Positions 7,886-39,462 of a stretch of 44,135 nucleotides of DNA are shown here, in pieces. Each line of letters opens with the position of its first letter. Position 1 is the stretch's first letter. Below the pieces are notes generated by a model. It ran no database searches. It had not been told where the DNA came from and saw nothing but the letters and a program-made list of their open reading frames with translations. This DNA comes from a virus, in the IMG/VR virus record IMGVR_UViG_3300044574_000013, positions 1 to 44,135 of that record; one strand, 5' to 3'. Both the position numbers and the translations under genes were made by a program.

Positions 7886-8541
7886 CAGAATATCCCGTCT
7901 AGAACAGCGTCAACCTTGGATGCTACGGCATTGCTGGTGTCCTTTGCCATCTGCTGGCCGCGCTCAATCGAACGCGCAAGGCTTGATTTTGTTGGATCAC
8001 CAGTTCGCAGCCATGATTGGATCGGTTGGCCGGGCGCGACAAGGCGATCTAGCGTTATCAGCTCCTGCATTTCCACCACGAACTCGAGACCGTTTTCGTT
8101 TCTCGGCTCCTTTGTGCGCGATAGCTTGGTGATGATCATGTTCTTTAGGAAAATGTCACCGGCATCAATATCAATTGCATTTCCTTGGCGCATCAGATCT
8201 ATCAGGAACGCAAGTGTTGAGCTGGCCCTTGTCTCGGTGCTGCCAGCCAGGAACGCAGCCGACATGCCCGCTACAGCGGCCACATATGGGTTATCTGTGA
8301 GGTTGGAAAGAAGCCCGCCAGCGAAGTCGACAATGTTTGTCTGCAATGGGTTGTTGCTGATAGCCCCGGTCATCGTCCACTTGAATGGAAGCAAGATTCG
8401 GTGATCGACAATCCGGGCGCCAGACTCAATCGGGTAGCTGGTCAGCTCCACGCCGATTTCTAGCGAGTCCTCAAGAACCGCATCAAACGAATGCCCATTG
8501 ATGGTCGGAGCCACTCTTGTGAAAACACTAATTAAGCTCAC
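7885..8541 (-). CDS. Dit-like baseplate hub protein
   Basis: 218 residues, GTG start at 8541 with GAGGTG upstream. N-terminal beta-rich region (GHSFDAVLEDSLEIGVELTS, PIESGARIVDHRILLPFKW) resembles the Dit-like N-domain of small myophage hubs, followed by helical LAFLIDLMRQGNAIDIDAG and a second beta region NEN-FVVEMQELITLD. It probably forms the hexameric ring joining the tube to the hub. It follows the tape measure gene, the standard order. Confidence 0.65.
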   Translation of the reverse strand: MSLISVFTRVAPTINGHSFDAVLEDSLEIGVELTSYPIESGARIVDHRILLPFKWTMTGAISNNPLQTNIVDFAGGLLSNLTDNPYVAAVAGMSAAFLAGSTETRASSTLAFLIDLMRQGNAIDIDAGDIFLKNMIITKLSRTKEPRNENGLEFVVEMQELITLDRLVAPGQPIQSWLRTGDPTKSSLARSIERGQQMAKDTSNAVASKVDAVLDGIF

Positions 8542-8544
8542 CCG

Positions 8545-9906
8545 TCACCTCGCCGTTGTAGTTGAAAGGTCGCCAAGCGACTCATGCGCGGTGCGCTCGT
8601 TTACCTCTGTGACTCTTGCGTCAAATGCTCGACCGTCAAGCTCAACATTTACCGTGGTGGTGTTGGAGACCTTGATTGGGCTTCTGCTAATAGCGCCCGC
8701 AAGCGCTTCAGCATTGGCCTGACGATCATCCTCGGCCGAAATGGCTCCCGTATTGGCGCTCAATTCGGACGGGGTAAGACCATTGCCTGACGTTAACGGA
8801 TCTCTACCGCGCATATCTGACGGGGAAAGCCCTGCGCCAGATGCTGGCGATGATCCGAACAGTAGCTCAAGCGGGGATGGAATCCGCTCAAGCCCAGTCA
8901 CCTGCATGATGTTCTCGTCAAATCCGCGAGAAATATCGCCGTAGCCCGGGATGTACTTGTCGAGCGTCGTGTTCAGCAGATTTGCGCCAAGCGCACTACC
9001 TGCAACGGCCACGCCAGCAGCGCCAGCACCACCTACAGCGCCGCCAATGGTTGATAGTCCTATCTTAGAAAGACCGGCTCCCAACAGTGAAGCTGTAGCG
9101 CTAGCCCCAAGCGCGGCAGTCGCACCTGCGTTATCGCCAGCGTATTTTATGCCGGAGCTGATAGCCCCTTTGTTCTCAGCCAGAAAGCTATTTATCCACC
9201 CGCTTACACCCACCAATGACGGCAGGAACTCCTTGGCCAGCTCGTTGGTTATTCCCTCCAGCGTCAGGCTAAAGTCAGCCGCATTCTCCATCAGCTTGCG
9301 GGAGTTTTCAGTAAGCTCTTCGATGTTGCCTGCCAGCTCTTCAGATCGAGCAAGGTTTCCTTGGAATGCCTCGGGGCCTTGGGCGAGAACCTTTAGCTCT
9401 GCATCAGATAGGCTCAATGACTTTTGAGTAACGCCGCGCTGCTCTTTTGTCATGCCGGGGATCTGGCGCGACAGCTGAGCCTGGAACTGCTCAGCGCTAG
9501 TGGCTCTCGACAGGTCGAGAATATCGATTCCGGCTACGGCCATATCGCTCAGGCCGCCAAGCTCGCCCTTGAACTGAATTCCGTTAAGCAGGCTTTCGAT
9601 ATTGGCGATTGATGATGCGGCCTCGGATGCATCGCCACCCATCCTTTTTAGGGCGTTCCCGTAGTTGTAAACGTGCTGCATCGAAGTCCGCATGTTGCTG
9701 GTCTTCAGTGCGAGCTGGTCGATTTTACCGGCAGTGTTCACAACGCTTGCCGCAGCTGCGCCGAAGGCACCAACCAGCGCCGCAGATAATTTTAGGGCTG
9801 ATCCCTTGACCCCATCCATCTTGCTATTAACGTCCTTCATTCCAGAGTCGAGTTTTGACGTATCAAAACCGATTCCGATCAGAAAGGAAGTCAGGACGTT
9901 GGCCAT
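8545..9906 (-). CDS. Tape measure protein
   Basis: 453 residues, Ala/Gly/Ser-rich and largely helical. It starts with SFLIGIGFDTSKLDSGMKD, a common opening of tape measure proteins, has heptad-like helices over 1-240, and a strongly hydrophobic Ala/Gly stretch around 255-310 that could cross the host membrane. By the usual 1.5 angstrom per residue it would set a short tail of roughly 65-70 nm. It lies directly after the frameshifted chaperone (stop TAA abuts its ATG), which is the normal arrangement. Confidence 0.85.
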   Translation of the reverse strand: MANVLTSFLIGIGFDTSKLDSGMKDVNSKMDGVKGSALKLSAALVGAFGAAAASVVNTAGKIDQLALKTSNMRTSMQHVYNYGNALKRMGGDASEAASSIANIESLLNGIQFKGELGGLSDMAVAGIDILDLSRATSAEQFQAQLSRQIPGMTKEQRGVTQKSLSLSDAELKVLAQGPEAFQGNLARSEELAGNIEELTENSRKLMENAADFSLTLEGITNELAKEFLPSLVGVSGWINSFLAENKGAISSGIKYAGDNAGATAALGASATASLLGAGLSKIGLSTIGGAVGGAGAAGVAVAGSALGANLLNTTLDKYIPGYGDISRGFDENIMQVTGLERIPSPLELLFGSSPASGAGLSPSDMRGRDPLTSGNGLTPSELSANTGAISAEDDRQANAEALAGAISRSPIKVSNTTTVNVELDGRAFDARVTEVNERTAHESLGDLSTTTAR

Positions 9907-22923: not shown

Positions 22924-22998
22924 TGGCTGGCAATGGAGGGCTCGAACCTCCGACTTCCCGGTTAACAGCCGGGCGTTCTACCACTGAACTAATCGCCA
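22924..22998 (-). tRNA. tRNA-Asn (GTT)
   Basis: Full cloverleaf on the minus strand: 7-bp acceptor (TGGCGAT / ATTGCCA with one G-T pair), D arm GTTCAGTGGTAGAAC, 5-bp anticodon stem CCCGG/CCGGG around CTGTTAA (anticodon GTT), T arm GGAGG-TTCGAGC-CCTCC, discriminator G as in bacterial tRNA-Asn, and an encoded CCA end (22926-22924). Confidence 0.95.
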
Positions 22999-23001
22999 AT
23001 T

Positions 23002-23077
23002 TGGTGCCGCCAAAAGGATTTGAACCCTTGACCCGCTGCTTACAAGGCAGCCGCTCTACCAGCTGAGCTATAACGGC
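23002..23077 (-). tRNA. tRNA-Thr (TGT)
   Basis: Cloverleaf on the minus strand: acceptor GCCGTTA / TGGCGGC (two G-T pairs), D arm GCTCAGCTGGTAGAGC, anticodon stem GCTGC/GCAGC around CTTGTAA (anticodon TGT), T arm AAGGG-TTCAAAT-CCTTT with one G-T pair, discriminator A and encoded CCA (23004-23002). It lies 3 bases upstream of tRNA-Asn and is probably co-transcribed with it. Confidence 0.95.
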
Positions 23078-26692: not shown

Positions 26693-26994
26693 TGGCCTGA
26701 TACCTCTGTAGGTTCAACAATGTCGATGTAGTAGAGAGCCGTGGTGCAGGTTGAGTTCTTGCGGCGTCTGATCGTAGATGTTTTGGTCTTTCCGTCCGTC
26801 ATAGCCCGGAGCTGTGCGCCATTGATATAGCCAGCCATCTTGCGCTCGTTCTTGAACTTTTCTTCGCGCTCCAGGTTAGCCAGGCGGTGCAGGACGTGCA
26901 TTATCTCGGATACGCTGACATAGGCTTTCTCGTCACCCCTGCTCTGCGCCATCGACATTTCAGCGCGCAGGTAGTTTAGGTCTGGCTTGCTCAT
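26689..26994 (-). CDS. Hypothetical protein
   Basis: 101 residues from ATG 26994, overlapping the upstream stop (ATGA). N-terminal half is helical (LNYLRAEMSMAQSRGDEKAY), the middle is Lys/Arg/Glu-rich, and TKTSTIRRRKNSTCTTALYY is basic. It could bind nucleic acid but shows no known domain. Confidence 0.58.
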   Translation of the reverse strand: MSKPDLNYLRAEMSMAQSRGDEKAYVSVSEIMHVLHRLANLEREEKFKNERKMAGYINGAQLRAMTDGKTKTSTIRRRKNSTCTTALYYIDIVEPTEVSGQ

Positions 26995-27317
26995 GACTGG
27001 ATTCCTGCTCGGGATTTGGCGCAGGCTTGCCAGATTTCCCATTCAGATTTGAAGTAATAAAGACCGCCATCATCTAGAACACCGCTAACAGAAGAGCATC
27101 TCCCCATATCGTGCATAGCATTCGCAAACAGCTCGCGCTCTTTGGCTTCGTCGTAGGCTGGAATTTCAACAGGTGGAGCGGCTGAAATCATATCGGCATA
27201 TGCTTCTTTTGCCGCCGAAATCTCGGGAGCGCCCTTGGTTACCTCTCCCCAAAAACCCAATATCATTTCTTCAGTAGGATCTATTGGGACAATTACAAAT
27301 CCGCTTGGAATATTCAT
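26991..27317 (-). CDS. Accessory phage protein behind structured RNA element 1
   Basis: 108 residues from ATG 27317. Opens IPSGFVIVPIDPTEEMILGF, a recurrent start in phage accessory proteins of Pseudomonas and enterobacterial phages, and ends with YYFKSEWEIWQACAKSRAG. Its leader (27318-27331) and the last part of RNA element 1 are nearly the same as the leader of the 39226 gene (TTTTTTGTGGGT then GAAAATGA). No clear ribosome site other than GGGT. Confidence 0.6.
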   Translation of the reverse strand: MNIPSGFVIVPIDPTEEMILGFWGEVTKGAPEISAAKEAYADMISAAPPVEIPAYDEAKERELFANAMHDMGRCSSVSGVLDDGGLYYFKSEWEIWQACAKSRAGIQS

Positions 27318-27331
27318 TTTCAATTACCCAC

Positions 27332-27445
27332 AAAAAAGGCTTCAAGAAGACCGTCGCATTTCTGCGTTGGCGGACGGGGATTGGTTCCCGCACGATCTTC
27401 TTGAAGCCTTACCAATTTAATCGCCCGCCAAGGCGCTATGTACGG
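27332..27445 (-). ncRNA. Structured RNA element 1 (double-pseudoknot type)
   Basis: Minus-strand element of about 114 bases. Helix C is a perfect 15-bp stem (27396-27410 with 27336-27350) followed by six T. Inside it lie a GGGA/TCCC hairpin and CGCA-GAAA-TGCG with a GNRA loop. Helix B pairs an upstream segment (27422-27431) with the internal segment 27367-27376 over 10 bp (one G-T). ATTGGT (27416-27411) can also pair with ACCAAT (27385-27380). Helix A (27438-27445) is weaker: CCGT/ACGG plus CAT/ATG. The arrangement matches elements 2 and 3. Could also act simply as an attenuator upstream of 27317. Confidence 0.65.
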
Positions 27446-27484
27446 ACTGGATATTGCAGCATCTTCGCATGGTGCGCAAGCTGG

Positions 27485-28255
27485 TTATTCGTCCAGCTCA
27501 TCTTGTGAGGATATTGAATGCTGCTGCTGCCACTCTTGGAACTTGTCCGTTTCCAAGGGCTTTAAGTCTGTCCACCCGGTGGGCCACCCCATCAGCCACT
27601 CTACCCACTCCGGGTTCATGTGGCCATTTTCTCCTGAGTGCGCAATAGCCCATCCCAACTTGTTCGGCTTCGTTCGCCCGTCTCCGCTGCATTGAAGTTT
27701 TAAGTCGTTCGATGCCGCCATAGCATTTGGAGTAGGCCACAATCCAGCAGCGATCACGCTGATGGGGCGCTCCAGTGTCGGATGCTGAAACAATGCACCA
27801 CTGCGCGTCATACCCCATTTCGGCAAGATCACCGAGCACCACGGCAAGACCTCTTCCCACAAGCAAAGGTGAGTTTTCCACGAAGACGACTCGAGGTCGT
27901 ACTTCACCGATGATTTTCGCCATTTCCCCCCACAGCCCGGATCTTGCGCCAGCGATACCCGATCCGTTACCTGCTGCGGAAATGTCTTGGCACGGAAACC
28001 CTCCCGAAACCACGTCAACAATTCCTCGCCACGGTCTTCCGTCAAAACTGCACACGTCAGACCAAATTGGGAAAGGCGGGAGAATTCCATCGTTTTGTCG
28101 TTGCGCCAGAACTTGTGCGGCGTAGGCATCACGCTCAACGGCGCAGATTGTTCGCCACCCGAGCAGGTATCCTCCGAGGATTCCACCGCCGATTCCGGCG
28201 AATAGGGCAAGTTCTCGCAAACCTCCATCAGTGCCCTGCTTATCAGCCAGCTCAT
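27485..28255 (-). CDS. Second-frame gene fully overlapping the methyltransferase
   Basis: 256 residues from ATG 28255, four bases inside the methyltransferase start and sharing its ribosome site (GGAGGAATT). It is open for its whole length in another frame and has protein-like, Trp-rich blocks that I recognise from phage proteins annotated near C5 methyltransferases: FSRLSQFGLTCAVLTEDRGE (58-77), LESSSWKTHLCLWEEVLPW (121-139), SVILPKWGMTRSG, GLWPTPNA (171-178) and EWVEWLMGWPTGWTDLKPL (216-234). The last block is the frame-shifted reading of the methyltransferase motif IX/X region. Function unknown. A chance frame is the alternative. Confidence 0.6.
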   Translation of the reverse strand: MSWLISRALMEVCENLPYSPESAVESSEDTCSGGEQSAPLSVMPTPHKFWRNDKTMEFSRLSQFGLTCAVLTEDRGEELLTWFREGFRAKTFPQQVTDRVSLAQDPGCGGKWRKSSVKYDLESSSWKTHLCLWEEVLPWCSVILPKWGMTRSGALFQHPTLERPISVIAAGLWPTPNAMAASNDLKLQCSGDGRTKPNKLGWAIAHSGENGHMNPEWVEWLMGWPTGWTDLKPLETDKFQEWQQQHSISSQDELDE

Positions 28256-28259
28256 TCAT
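27498..28259 (-). CDS. C5 cytosine DNA methyltransferase
   Basis: 253 residues. All core motifs in order: I LFAGIGGG (19-26), IV GGFPCQD with catalytic Cys90, VI VFVENSP (125-131, ENS in place of the usual ENV), VIII QRDRCWIVA (167-175), X ALGNGQVP (234-241). The target-recognition stretch between VIII and X is only about 60 residues, so the enzyme is compact. It would methylate cytosine in phage DNA, most likely to resist host restriction. No cognate nuclease gene is seen nearby. Start ATG 28259 overlaps the upstream stop (ATGA). Confidence 0.88.
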   Translation of the reverse strand: MNELADKQGTDGGLRELALFAGIGGGILGGYLLGWRTICAVERDAYAAQVLAQRQNDGILPPFPIWSDVCSFDGRPWRGIVDVVSGGFPCQDISAAGNGSGIAGARSGLWGEMAKIIGEVRPRVVFVENSPLLVGRGLAVVLGDLAEMGYDAQWCIVSASDTGAPHQRDRCWIVAYSKCYGGIERLKTSMQRRRANEAEQVGMGYCALRRKWPHEPGVGRVADGVAHRVDRLKALGNGQVPRVAAAAFNILTR

Positions 28260-30230: not shown

Positions 30231-30845
30231 CTATCCGATGATCTTCATAGTCGACTCAACCAGCGCCAGAAACTCCTTTCGCCTATCCTGAAGGCGCTTA
30301 ATCTCGTCTTCCATGCTACTGCGGGTAACTCGGTAGACGATGAGTTGCCTATCCTCTGGGAAGTCAGAGCAATAACTCACAAAGTCTACCCACTGCCGGT
30401 CAGAACAATCTAGGTGCCCAGCCAGCTGCCAGCGATACGACGGATCGAATGACCCGCGCTGCAATGTTGCATAATGTGTAGAAGCGATAACAGACTTGAT
30501 TTCGATCAGACCATCATCTCCAACGCATCCGTCTGGGCTGTCGCCATACTCGCCGCAATCGAAGAACCCGCCATTAGTTACTGTCACGAAGTTCTCGTCT
30601 TCGTACATCATTCTTGCGATTGGCTCCTGCTCATGGCCGCGATCCATATCGTCATTTTTGAAGCTGTATTCAGCTTTCCTGCCGGTGATACGCTCCAGTG
30701 CTATCTGCAAGGCATATCGTTTGGCCGGATCTCCAAATGCCTTGCCGTCATTCGCCATGAAGCAGGCGAAGTTCGAAGCTGTGGCGCGACCGCAACGCAG
30801 CGCAGCCCAAGCCTCAGAGTTCTGCTCGACGTCATGCCACATCAT
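30231..30845 (-). CDS. YqaJ-like viral recombinase (exonuclease)
   Basis: 204 residues. PD-(D/E)XK nuclease layout: GHEQEPIARMMYEDENF (70-86), GDSPDG with Asp105, IEIKS with Glu115 and Lys117, and a downstream Gln (RWQLAGHLDCS). Lambda-exonuclease-like enzymes degrade one strand of duplex ends for annealing. Start ATG 30845 has GAGGAG upstream; a second ATG follows immediately. Coupled to the 31347 gene, which is its probable partner. Confidence 0.85.
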   Translation of the reverse strand: MMWHDVEQNSEAWAALRCGRATASNFACFMANDGKAFGDPAKRYALQIALERITGRKAEYSFKNDDMDRGHEQEPIARMMYEDENFVTVTNGGFFDCGEYGDSPDGCVGDDGLIEIKSVIASTHYATLQRGSFDPSYRWQLAGHLDCSDRQWVDFVSYCSDFPEDRQLIVYRVTRSSMEDEIKRLQDRRKEFLALVESTMKIIG

Positions 30846-31347
30846 TTGCGCACTCCTCGATCAGCAGGGATTCATGGTCTTTAGAAATACTTAGGCGCGC
30901 CTTTACAGCATCAAGGTTGCCGTCGCGCTTATAGGCTGCCTTGGCATTGCTCCAGGCTTTTGAATTGTCTGGCGTAAGATATGCGACTACAGGCGCCTTA
31001 GGTCTGATCCGCAAGCCTTCCATGACCTCGCGTCCAAACTTAACATTCGAATCAACGTAAATAGCGACCTTGACGCCCTGCCAATCCTCGATAAACGGCG
31101 AGTTGGTGAGCGACTTAAGTGTCTTGCTGTTGGTCACGTTTAGGATCATAGGCTTCAGTTTTTCGCCCGGCCGGATCTCGCGCTCTGAAAAATAAGCGGT
31201 ATTGAAAAGATCCTTGGTCTTCTTTGTCTTGTCCGACTCAAGAACGACTCGGGCAATGGTTAGGATGGTTGGGCCGACGATATCGGCGCTACTCAGATAC
31301 GGGCTGTTGAAAGCCTTTTTGAAATGGGTTTTTTGATCGTTGCTCAT
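30832..31347 (-). CDS. Recombination-associated phage protein (partner of YqaJ)
   Basis: 171 residues from ATG 31347; the frame extends further upstream into RNA element 2, which is not expected to be translated. Pattern: KKAFNSPYLSSADIVGPTIL, EIRPGEKLKPMILNVTNSKT, FIEDWQGVKVAIYVDSNVKF and EGLRIRPKAPVV. This pattern recurs in phage proteins encoded with recombination or replication genes, possibly a single-strand binding or annealing helper. It overlaps the exonuclease gene. The function is inferred from position. Confidence 0.62.
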   Translation of the reverse strand: MSNDQKTHFKKAFNSPYLSSADIVGPTILTIARVVLESDKTKKTKDLFNTAYFSEREIRPGEKLKPMILNVTNSKTLKSLTNSPFIEDWQGVKVAIYVDSNVKFGREVMEGLRIRPKAPVVAYLTPDNSKAWSNAKAAYKRDGNLDAVKARLSISKDHESLLIEECANDVA

Positions 31348-31361
31348 GACTTTTATCCAAT

Positions 31362-31506
31362 AAAAAAGCCCTTTGATTGTTCGCTGGTTAGACTCCGAAA
31401 TTGGCTTGGATCGACGGCAAGTCAACCAATCCCGGAACAGCGAACATCAAAAGGCTCTATTAGCCGTCGATCCTGATTTGTCTTCGAGGTCTAACTCTCT
31501 CCAACG
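31362..31506 (-). ncRNA. Structured RNA element 2 (double-pseudoknot type)
   Basis: Minus strand, expected start near 31506, end at the T-run 31367-31362. Helices: A GTTAGAC (31495-31489) with GTCTAAC (31393-31387); B 11 bp perfect (31473-31463 with 31418-31408); C about 19 bp with small bulges (31456-31438 with 31386-31367); D ATTGGTT (31430-31424) with AGCCAAT (31406-31400). B' lies in the loop of D, and A' directly abuts C', so B/D and A/C both cross. A TATAGT -10 box precedes it. Six T follow helix C, then the 31347 gene after a short leader. Confidence 0.72.
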
Positions 31507-35338: not shown

Positions 35339-35434
35339 TCAACCGAAGAAGTGAACCGCGACGACCGCCGCCGTAACGCCAAGCCCAAAGATCAGGGCGC
35401 CGATGAAGGATGCTGCTGGTGGGGTGATCTTCAT
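35339..35434 (-). CDS. Tiny membrane peptide, 31 residues
   Basis: ATG 35434 to TGA 35341-35339: KITPPAASFIGALIFGLGVT then AAVVAVHFFG, almost wholly hydrophobic. It sits immediately before the 35328 gene. Tiny one-span peptides recur in this operon (see 25268, 26055, 31551, 41958). No strong ribosome site was found, so confidence is moderate. Confidence 0.5.
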   Translation of the reverse strand: MKITPPAASFIGALIFGLGVTAAVVAVHFFG

Positions 35435-35465
35435 TTCAAAAGCCCTGATTTTTGAGTTGATTTTA

Positions 35466-35969
35466 TTATTCGGAAGTGCTGCCAAGCCATCCGCCGTCGG
35501 CAATCATCTTGCGCAGTCGCGCTTTTTGGGCGTCCCATGCTGCGTCCCATGCTGCGTCCCATGCTGCGGCCCATGCTGCGGCCCCCGCTGCGGCCCGTGC
35601 TGCGTCCCATGCTGCGTCCCGTGCTGCGGCCCCTGCTGCGGCCCCTGCTGCGGCCCGTGCTGCGTCATCACACAAACCATTGGCGAACTGCTCGGCAACA
35701 TCCAGAGCATCAAGACTGCGCTGGTCTGTCATCAGATGCTGGACTTTGCGGGCAGCCCAAACCGCGAACAGACGAAAATCACGGTCATGACCCTTGAATG
35801 CCCGAGCACACCACAAAGCATCATCCAGGCCGTTGCTGTCGAGAATGGTCAGCAGCGAAAGAGGCTCGTCGTCAGTCTTGGTTTTGCCGAGCGTGCCCAG
35901 CAGTTTTTGCCAGCCATCGGAGCACGGGCTGCATTCGCGTATTTCGTTGAGGGTGGTGGTGAAGGTCAT
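35466..35969 (-). CDS. Protein with Ala-Ala-Trp-Asp repeat domain
   Basis: 167 residues, start ATG 35969 with AGGAG upstream. The first 100 residues are globular (CSDGWQKLLGTLGKTKTDDE, LTILDSNGLDDALWCARAF). Residues about 103-147 are four-residue repeats of the type AAWD / AARA / AAGA, encoded by imperfect 12-bp DNA repeats. Such repeat tails occur in several Pseudomonas phage proteins; the repeats may form a helical rod. The C-terminus (RLRKMIADGGWLG) is again normal. Function unknown. Confidence 0.65.
   Translation of the reverse strand: MTFTTTLNEIRECSPCSDGWQKLLGTLGKTKTDDEPLSLLTILDSNGLDDALWCARAFKGHDRDFRLFAVWAARKVQHLMTDQRSLDALDVAEQFANGLCDDAARAAAGAAAGAAARDAAWDAARAAAGAAAWAAAWDAAWDAAWDAQKARLRKMIADGGWLGSTSE
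35531..35668. repeat. 12-bp imperfect tandem repeat inside the Ala-repeat gene
   Basis: About eleven copies of a unit close to GCTGCGTCCCAT (plus strand), with variants GCTGCGGCCCAT, GCTGCGGCCCGT and GCTGCGGCCCCT. As 12 is a multiple of 3, copy number can change without breaking the frame, adding or removing four residues at a time. Confidence 0.9.
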
Positions 35970-35996
35970 GGTGAATCTCCTGTTTTGGTACTGGCA

Positions 35997-36016
35997 AAGC
36001 CCCAGTTAAGGGGCTT
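35997..36016 (-). terminator. Hairpin after the 36204 gene
   Basis: AAGCCCC/GGGGCTT (7 bp, loop 6), followed by TTT on the minus strand. It lies between the 36034 stop and the ribosome site at 35976; probably a partial terminator or leader hairpin early in the leftward operon. Confidence 0.5.
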
Positions 36017-36033
36017 GAGGTGGTCGGGGATGG

Positions 36034-36204
36034 TTATTTTTGGAGGTCGGACTTTCGAGCCCAGCGGATAAGGTGGCCTTTGCCTGGTAGCGCGCATTGC
36101 AGCTTAATCAGCTGGCCATCGACTTCGATGGGGTCAGCGTAAAACGCCATGGTTGCGCCGTTGAAGCCATCAGGCAGTTCGATGATTTTGCGCTCGGTGT
36201 TCAT
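36034..36204 (-). CDS. First gene of leftward operon, 56-residue protein
   Basis: ATG 36204 (MNTERKIIELPDGFNGATMA) with GGAG about 10 bases upstream; an earlier start at 36291 would run into the promoter. Small beta-rich protein ending LIRWARKSDLQK. First product of the leftward promoter, so expressed early. Function unknown. Confidence 0.58.
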   Translation of the reverse strand: MNTERKIIELPDGFNGATMAFYADPIEVDGQLIKLQCALPGKGHLIRWARKSDLQK

Positions 36205-39044: not shown

Positions 39045-39072
39045 TTTACCGATGCGCGAGAATCGGTATACT
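39045..39072 (+). promoter_or_regulatory. Promoter for RNA element 3
   Basis: TTTACC (39045-39050), 16-base spacer, TATACT (39067-39072). CCGAT/ATCGG flank the spacer as a small inverted repeat. A start about 7 bases downstream falls just before helix A of the element, giving a transcript that begins with the RNA structure. Confidence 0.68.
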
Positions 39073-39078
39073 CAGCGA

Positions 39079-39211
39079 ACGGGTGTAGTAGCCCAGAGTT
39101 TATGGATCGAGGGTAGCAAAGGTTTAAGAGTGTGCCGTTCCTGTTGGGTTGAGTTCCCCCTCGATCCAGACCCAACAGGTCTACTACCGGCATACCCTTA
39201 AGCCTTTTTTT
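39079..39211 (+). ncRNA. Structured RNA element 3 (double-pseudoknot type)
   Basis: About 133 bases from the expected start to the 7-base T-run (39205-39211). Helices: A GTAGTAG (39085-39091) with CTACTAC (39181-39187); B GGATCGAGGG (39104-39113) with CCCTCGATCC (39158-39167); C 20 positions (39118-39137 with 39188-39207; one mismatch, two G-U); D CCTGTTGGGT (39140-39149) with ACCCAACAGG (39170-39179). B' is in the D loop; A' abuts C'. So the order is A-B-C-D-B'-D'-A'-C', two pseudoknots. Own promoter and terminator-like end suggest a free RNA. Confidence 0.75.
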
Positions 39212-39225
39212 GTGGGTGATCGAAA

Positions 39226-39462
39226 ATGAGCGAATGGATTAGCGTTGACGAGCAACTGCCTAAACTAGGCGAAATGGTCTTGGCTTCGGTAGCTGTAGGA
39301 TCGGTAATGGGCCGGAGCAGCATGGTTTTTATTTCGGGAATGATGCCTTCGGCGCATGGAGCAGAAAAAGAATGGCAGATGGAATCAATTCCAAAAATAT
39401 ACACGCCATTGCGAGTTACCCACTGGATGCCGCTCCCATCACCGCCGGAGGATTCAGAATGA
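39226..39462 (+). CDS. DUF551-like protein
   Basis: 78 residues. SEWISVDEQLPKLGEMVLAS at the start and RVTHWMPLPSPPEDS at the end are the two ends of the DUF551 domain, a small module common in phage early proteins. Placed right after RNA element 3; the leader (TTTTTGTGGGT, GAAAATGA) resembles that of the 27317 gene. Function unknown. Confidence 0.78.
   Translation: MSEWISVDEQLPKLGEMVLASVAVGSVMGRSSMVFISGMMPSAHGAEKEWQMESIPKIYTPLRVTHWMPLPSPPEDSE

Follow-up and report, generated by a model that had tools for sequence, protein, structure and literature searches.

A pseudoknotted leader RNA with its own terminator precedes early genes in many phages and probably acts as an attenuator

The window analysed here, the whole stretch of DNA under study, comprises positions 1 to 44,135 (44,135 nt) of the virus record IMGVR_UViG_3300044574_000013 in IMG/VR. 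Three structured elements, E1, E2 and E3, were located in this one phage record, and a single helix order was observed in all of them: a 5' hairpin with an 8-nt loop (A), the partner of A' immediately ahead of the terminator; another pseudoknot, B/B', which lies within hairpin D; and the long helix C with a T run at its end. E1 and its surroundings present the following parts.

27332-27435, minus: E1, subtype 2 element, from the P1 hairpin to the T run (sequence reading and topology search)
27422-27435, minus: P1, 5' hairpin CGC[CTTGGCGG]GCG; stem and loop pairing covary in relatives
27425-27431, minus: A, TTGGCGG inside the 8-nt P1 loop, pairs with A'
27411-27416, minus: B, ATTGGT, partner of B' at 27380-27385; B covaries in relatives
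27392-27410, minus: 5' arm of the terminator helix C, 19 nt, AAGGCTTCAAGAAGATCGT
27374-27391, minus: hairpin D, GCGGG/CCCGT, encloses B'
27380-27385, minus: B', ACCAAT, in the loop of hairpin D
27367-27373, minus: A', CCGCCAA, partner of loop A
27355-27366, minus: P4 hairpin, CGCA-GAAA-TGCG
27332-27354, minus: terminator, formed by the C 3' arm ACGGTCTTCTTGAAGCCTT at 27336-27354 plus the T run
27451-27479, minus: possible promoter TTGCGC-17-CAATAT, seen by eye, weak and absent from the consensus-scan list
26991-27317, minus: gene behind E1, 108 aa, start codon at 27317

Helix C has 15 perfect base pairs, or 19 bp when one G-T is included (AAGGCTTCAAGAAGATCGT/ACGGTCTTCTTGAAGCCTT), and is followed by six T, thus E1 has the stable stem with a directly adjoining U run of an intrinsic terminator. 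The first-pass annotation had placed a structured RNA at 27332-27445 with the 15-bp stem and the six T, and this RNA is indeed present, on the minus strand. The GNRA hairpin (P4) it had described is real and covaries, its contact between ATTGGT and the ACCAAT loop corresponds to our B pseudoknot, and its 10-bp helix with one G-T, there called B, is the A pairing of the present analysis, TTGGCGGGCG/CGTCCGCCAA. Only its helix A (CCGT/ACGG plus CAT/ATG) had to be given up: ACGG forms the base of the terminator stem, and by eye the pair is not kept in the near relatives L189 and L222. Absent from that description were TTGGCGG in the 8-nt loop of CGC[CTTGGCGG]GCG and the pairing around ACCAAT, which is CGGG/CCCG in E1 versus CATG/CATG in the relative L007. 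The gene behind E1 had no Pfam match and a weak PHROG match of unknown function. Just upstream of E1, at 27498-28259 of the window, lies a C5-cytosine methyltransferase gene; 459 bases of it match methyltransferase genes of Salmonella phages at about 81 % DNA identity, which suggests a recent exchange.

E2 and E3 differ from E1 in sequence; the order P1(A)-B-C-D-B'-D'-A'-C' is kept, without P4.

31362-31499, minus: E2, subtype 1 element
31486-31499, minus: E2 P1
31463-31473, minus: E2 B
31438-31458, minus: E2 C 5' arm
31426-31436 with 31394-31404, minus: E2 hairpin D
31408-31418, minus: E2 B'
31387-31393, minus: E2 A', GTCTAAC
31362-31386, minus: E2 C 3' arm and T run
30832-31347, minus: gene behind E2, phrog_21613, 171 aa
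39080-39211, plus: E3, subtype 1 element
39045-39072, plus: promoter-like site of E3, TTTACC-16-TATACT (consensus scan)
39081-39094, plus: E3 P1
39104-39113, plus: E3 B
39119-39137, plus: E3 C 5' arm
39170-39179, plus: E3 D 3' arm
39181-39187, plus: E3 A'
39188-39206, plus: E3 C 3' arm, with the T run reaching to 39211
39226-39462, plus: gene behind E3, DUF551 protein, followed by a KilAC-domain antirepressor gene

E2 heads a recombination operon, in which the phrog_21613 gene is followed by genes for a RecE-like exonuclease and an HNH endonuclease. Carriage on plasmids was checked for E2 and rejected. A third copy and near-identical leaders behind E1 and E3 had been claimed before, and both were recovered, the leaders as 33 nt of 82 % identity; this shared leader is mostly terminator tail plus Shine-Dalgarno, common to most related elements read. 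The idea of duplicated or exchanged modules holds for the modular relation to the gene behind, near-identical E3-type RNAs standing before DUF551 and several other unrelated genes, but not for fresh duplication, the three copies being different sequence subtypes. No sign of self-mobility, the other suggestion made for the copies, was found. Elsewhere in the window, about ten tandem copies of a 12-nt unit (GCGTCCCATGCT-like) at 35530-35664 share their stretch with an ORF at 35403-36071 (plus) and look like a coding repeat, and adjoining tRNA-Asn and tRNA-Thr genes at 22924-23077 (minus) are as a pair 92.5 % identical to Pseudomonas phage HU1.

A sequence-blind topology search of the window ranked E2 (score 54.5), E3 (52.6) and E1 (42.1) as the top three, the next best reaching 31.5. 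Among 400 dinucleotide-shuffled windows one attained the 42.1 of E1 and none attained 52, therefore E1 alone is only moderately beyond chance, and it is the relatives that make it certain. When the search was applied to 121 loci (1.08 Mb), scores of 40 or above were confined to loci that contain subtype 1 or 2 elements; one such score, in L012, belongs to an element of unrelated sequence. This element, on the minus strand near 8239, has the helix order in common with another of unrelated sequence on the minus strand of L294 near 2539, a hint at further subtypes.

Relatives were sought in viral contigs. A pattern derived from E2 and E3 retrieved 21 stretches, each of which was read individually; all combined the complete fold and a T run with promoter-like sequence and a start codon downstream, L020 being cut on its 5' side by the contig end. 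The subtype 1 pattern is palindromic and counts each element twice, so 48 matches correspond to 24 distinct subtype 1 elements. Two patterns and then a stricter finder yielded at least 126 distinct elements of subtype 2 in phage contigs, an abundance to be taken as a lower bound. The first subtype 2 pattern fixed the core of A and both patterns fix parts of D or A', thus invariance at these places is no evidence. About half of the matches of the first pattern were due to chance, with a real element in 63 of the 119 loci L141-L259 among the matches listed; for the loci L303-L401 the ratio was 91 of 99, again among the matches listed. On the reversed sequence of all loci (3.7 Mb) the stricter finder accepted nothing. 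Three elements of different subtypes were present in four of 14 relatives of this phage (G003, G007, G010, G014), each read nearly whole, and one element of G014 has the same helix order and an unrelated sequence. Named carriers are the phages Orisa01-03 (P. syringae 7C), AH02 (P. koreensis), BcepMigl, DC1, CSP3 and BcepIL02 (Burkholderia) as well as Lbo-JY16 and Lbo240-yong2, whose host is given as the cyanobacterium Leptolyngbya boryana; the fold was read in AH02, BcepMigl, BcepIL02, CSP3, Lbo-JY16 and Orisa03, the remaining named carriers were assigned by BLAST. About 760 sampled bacterial genomes contained no true copy. The 16 stretches matching the subtype 1 pattern in bacterial genome contigs were all chance on reading, the subtype 2 pattern matched none of the 390 genomes from one order and two of 369 from one class, neither being an element, and presence in bacterial chromosomes was rejected on these grounds. 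Among 80 loci neighbouring phrog_21613 none had a subtype 2 element, and BLAST with the L170-type gave no match. The viral contig L350 has a sub-threshold tmRNA match at 9268-9361 (33 bits against a gathering value of 47).

The fold was examined for covariation in 19 gap-free rows of equal length, representing a whole length class, in which four rows with B shifted by one column were kept. Over P1, B, C and P4, 95.6 % of the cells were paired versus 83.6 % in shuffled rows, 90 cells were changed on both sides versus 23.2 in the shuffles, none of 500 shuffles being as high, and 19 pairs had changed on both sides. Slid controls reduced the paired cells to 37-44 %. The number of further pair types in the 19 rows did not differ from the shuffles (181 of 500). 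A second test used 102 elements picked by their 3' motif only. Most positions of C paired in 94-100 % of these, positions 8 and 9 in 63 % and 44 %, the re-pairing control for C positions spanning 21-100 %; the B run had 6.02 versus 3.94 after re-pairing, and P1 behaved like B and C. Position 9 of helix C is in subtype 2 a fixed internal mismatch, A-C in 51 and C-G in 42 of the 102 elements. Loop A and A' were exact complements in all 107 testable subtype 2 elements, including eight with a changed A'; besides TTGGCGG the loop occurred as TTGGCAG, TTGGAGG and TTGGTGG. Subtype 1 presented seven variants of A in 24 elements, all matched by A'. Among the matches listed, all 126 subtype 2 elements have a P4 of 4-7 bp, with a GAAA or GCAA loop in 62, and the linkers at the C/D/A'/P4 junction measure zero nt in 122 to 126 of the 126. 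Conservation of the terminator stem alone, the outcome the first-pass annotation had named as fatal to its proposal, was not what we found, since every helix covaries or is kept. We hold with very high confidence, judging from sequence comparison, that the predicted fold of the leader RNA is real.

The elements are tied to the gene behind them. Of 144 testable elements, 142 had a start codon on the same strand no more than 60 nt behind C (median 14 nt), five elements too near a contig end being left out, and in 120 of those 142 the distance was 10-20 nt. The tRNA genes of the same loci had a start codon within 60 nt in only four of 22 cases, and among 2000 random points 891 lay within 60 nt of a start codon and 180 at 10-20 nt. 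A close start codon behind any inserted RNA is partly expected, because phage genomes are compact, and since any frame of at least 40-50 aa passes the tests for start codons and ORFs, a few calls are false short frames. For 86 of the 126 subtype 2 elements among the matches listed, the best match to a -10 box lay upstream of the loop with its end 9-13 nt away; with this placement the RNA would start at P1. The 140 complete downstream proteins fell into 39 clusters, the largest of which (46 proteins) is a DUF1376-type, replication-initiator-like group. Nine winged-helix proteins, several HNH or GIY-YIG-like proteins (the GIY-YIG label given partly by reading of the sequence), RecT, ERF, YqaJ, AntA, DUF551 and small unknowns were also present. 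The genes behind the elements are early ones, replication initiators, recombination and homing-endonuclease-like genes, and the former view of merely accessory genes does not fit this cluster of 46 or the recombination operon behind E2. A winged-helix gene stands before the replication genes in BcepMigl and BcepIL02. The BcepMigl element fills a gap inside an early operon and is followed by genes for a winged-helix protein, an HNH protein, a replication initiator and a DnaC-like loader. TransTerm terminators are annotated elsewhere in the BcepMigl record, none at the element; annotation missed the element in the records read, probably owing to the 40-70 nt length of the terminator loop. Sequence and comparison together demonstrate the fold, the terminator and the association with the gene that follows.

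Taken together, E1 appears to represent a widespread leader RNA of phages, about 100-140 nt in length, with which the transcript of the downstream gene would begin. The layout of promoter, P1, knotted body, intrinsic terminator, Shine-Dalgarno and start codon about 14 nt further on leads us to read the element as a cis-acting, pseudoknotted attenuator leader, with a probability of roughly 60 %. Transcription would begin at P1, as the placement of the -10 box suggests. While the polymerase advances, loop A would pair with A', then B with B' and D with D', and the arms of C, about 40-70 nt apart, may thereby meet; C and the U run would then release most polymerases. Expression of the early gene would in this case depend on the failure rate of the terminator, a built-in attenuator, and the knotted RNA probably controls when the next gene is switched on. 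Read-through at the right time might be triggered by a phage antiterminator, a ligand, a competing RNA or a change in the speed of elongation. An antiterminator pairing common to the T-run elements was not found. Structured 5' leaders with an intrinsic terminator just before the gene are the hallmark shared with attenuators and terminator-type riboswitches, however no sequence in common, no Rfam match and no competing antiterminator were found. Against the attenuator stand two elements, L188 and L228, the only ones among the 126 subtype 2 elements of the matches listed in which the U run is clearly missing (it is weak in L246 and L250). A Shine-Dalgarno takes its place, the 3' arm of C can pair with the Shine-Dalgarno region instead, and formation of C would free the gene rather than block it. 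If functional, these two would be a translation-level version of opposite sign, which the attenuator model does not explain.

Other functions have to be weighed for the same layout. The terminated RNA of 100-140 nt may itself be the product, a stable small RNA acting in trans by its shape on a host or phage factor, while the next gene receives leak-through only. Its own promoter and terminator, the protected 5' and 3' ends, a structure kept while the sequence changes and several sequence subtypes of one shape per genome would suit such an RNA; the nearly fixed distance to the start codon in 142 of 144 elements, unlike that of the tRNA genes of the same loci, and the Shine-Dalgarno in place of the U run in two elements would not, and we consider this function unlikely. 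Plain punctuation, i.e., a strong RNase-resistant terminator and 5' end that stops upstream transcripts and restarts transcription without switching, seems quite improbable to us, since punctuation needs no more than a simple hairpin, and placing a promoter and then a terminator of its own ahead of the gene would be expensive. The few conserved unpaired bases and the P4 loops, which may be any stable tetraloop, agree with it, as does the orientation of the nearest upstream ORF, shared with the element in 104 of 135 cases, so that the terminator also cuts off upstream transcripts. The HK022 put RNA (PMC9378689) likewise affects termination as a structured leader of early phage promoters; it is made of two stem-loops, has no terminator and suppresses terminators further on, whereas the present element is pseudoknotted (A/A' and B/B' covary) and contains the terminator.

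The covariance models of Rfam 15 gave no match on the element (window at E<=5, eight loci at gathering, ten loci at E<=1), and Rfam families were rejected as its identity. In HDV-like ribozymes the helices follow the order P1-P2-P3-P3'-P1'-P4-P2'. The order A-C-D-D'-A'-(P4)-C' of the element equals it, including a first helix (A) of 7 bp, an optional P4 and linkers of zero or near-zero length, but an extra stem surrounds A, the loop of D pairs upstream (B) without a P1.1, and the RNA ends in a terminator. HDV-type ribozyme activity was rejected as having next to no probability: in 122 of the 126 subtype 2 elements among the matches listed, no nucleotide separates P4 from the last helix arm, which leaves no place for a catalytic C, and no Rfam ribozyme matched. 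In the rep leaders of IncI-alpha and IncB plasmids a UUGGCG loop has CGCCAA as its partner. Subtype 2, and only subtype 2, has this pair, with the loop C-UUGGCG-G facing a distal CCGCCAA, and often leads a replication initiator (46 of 140 downstream proteins being initiator-like). We nevertheless regard an antisense-controlled replication switch as very improbable, as an antisense -10 is not enriched (3.86 versus 4.17 in shuffled sequence), A' lies inside the terminator loop and not beside the Shine-Dalgarno, and subtype 1 loops differ. Reference titles in PMC10724649 name the UUGGCG motif and the pseudoknot for the rep leader of IncI-alpha, IncB and IncL-M plasmids; the phage element differs from the IncI/IncB leader in lacking an antisense promoter signal, in having a terminator and other pairings, and in standing before many other genes. 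The ToxI leaders of type III toxin-antitoxin systems are pseudoknot RNAs in tandem repeats, with a terminator before the toxin gene. Pseudoknot and terminator ahead of a gene are shared, but the element is a single unit without repeats and the 140 proteins encoded behind it spread over 39 clusters instead of forming a single toxin family, thus this system was rejected.

The terminator list of the Bcep22-like phage JC1 (PMC9144972, Table 4) contains none recognisable as this element. A search of mainly open-access literature retrieved no description of this RNA. The phage leader RNA is real and abundant, and apparently undescribed. As a tentative extension of the attenuator reading, a nested double pseudoknot of HDV-like order without catalysis might serve as a genome-wide switch of early phage operons that knots co-transcriptionally around its own terminator; phages of unrelated hosts could thereby time or limit replication, recombination and homing genes, with several sequence-divergent copies per genome avoiding both recombination and cross-pairing. 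The RNA class is carried by many phages, among them named Pseudomonas and Burkholderia phages and one recorded from Leptolyngbya, and its position is at the head of replication and recombination operons. Should the terminator prove to be regulated, the element would offer a new handle on how phages time their early genes, and a compact natural pseudoknot for work on RNA folding and structure.
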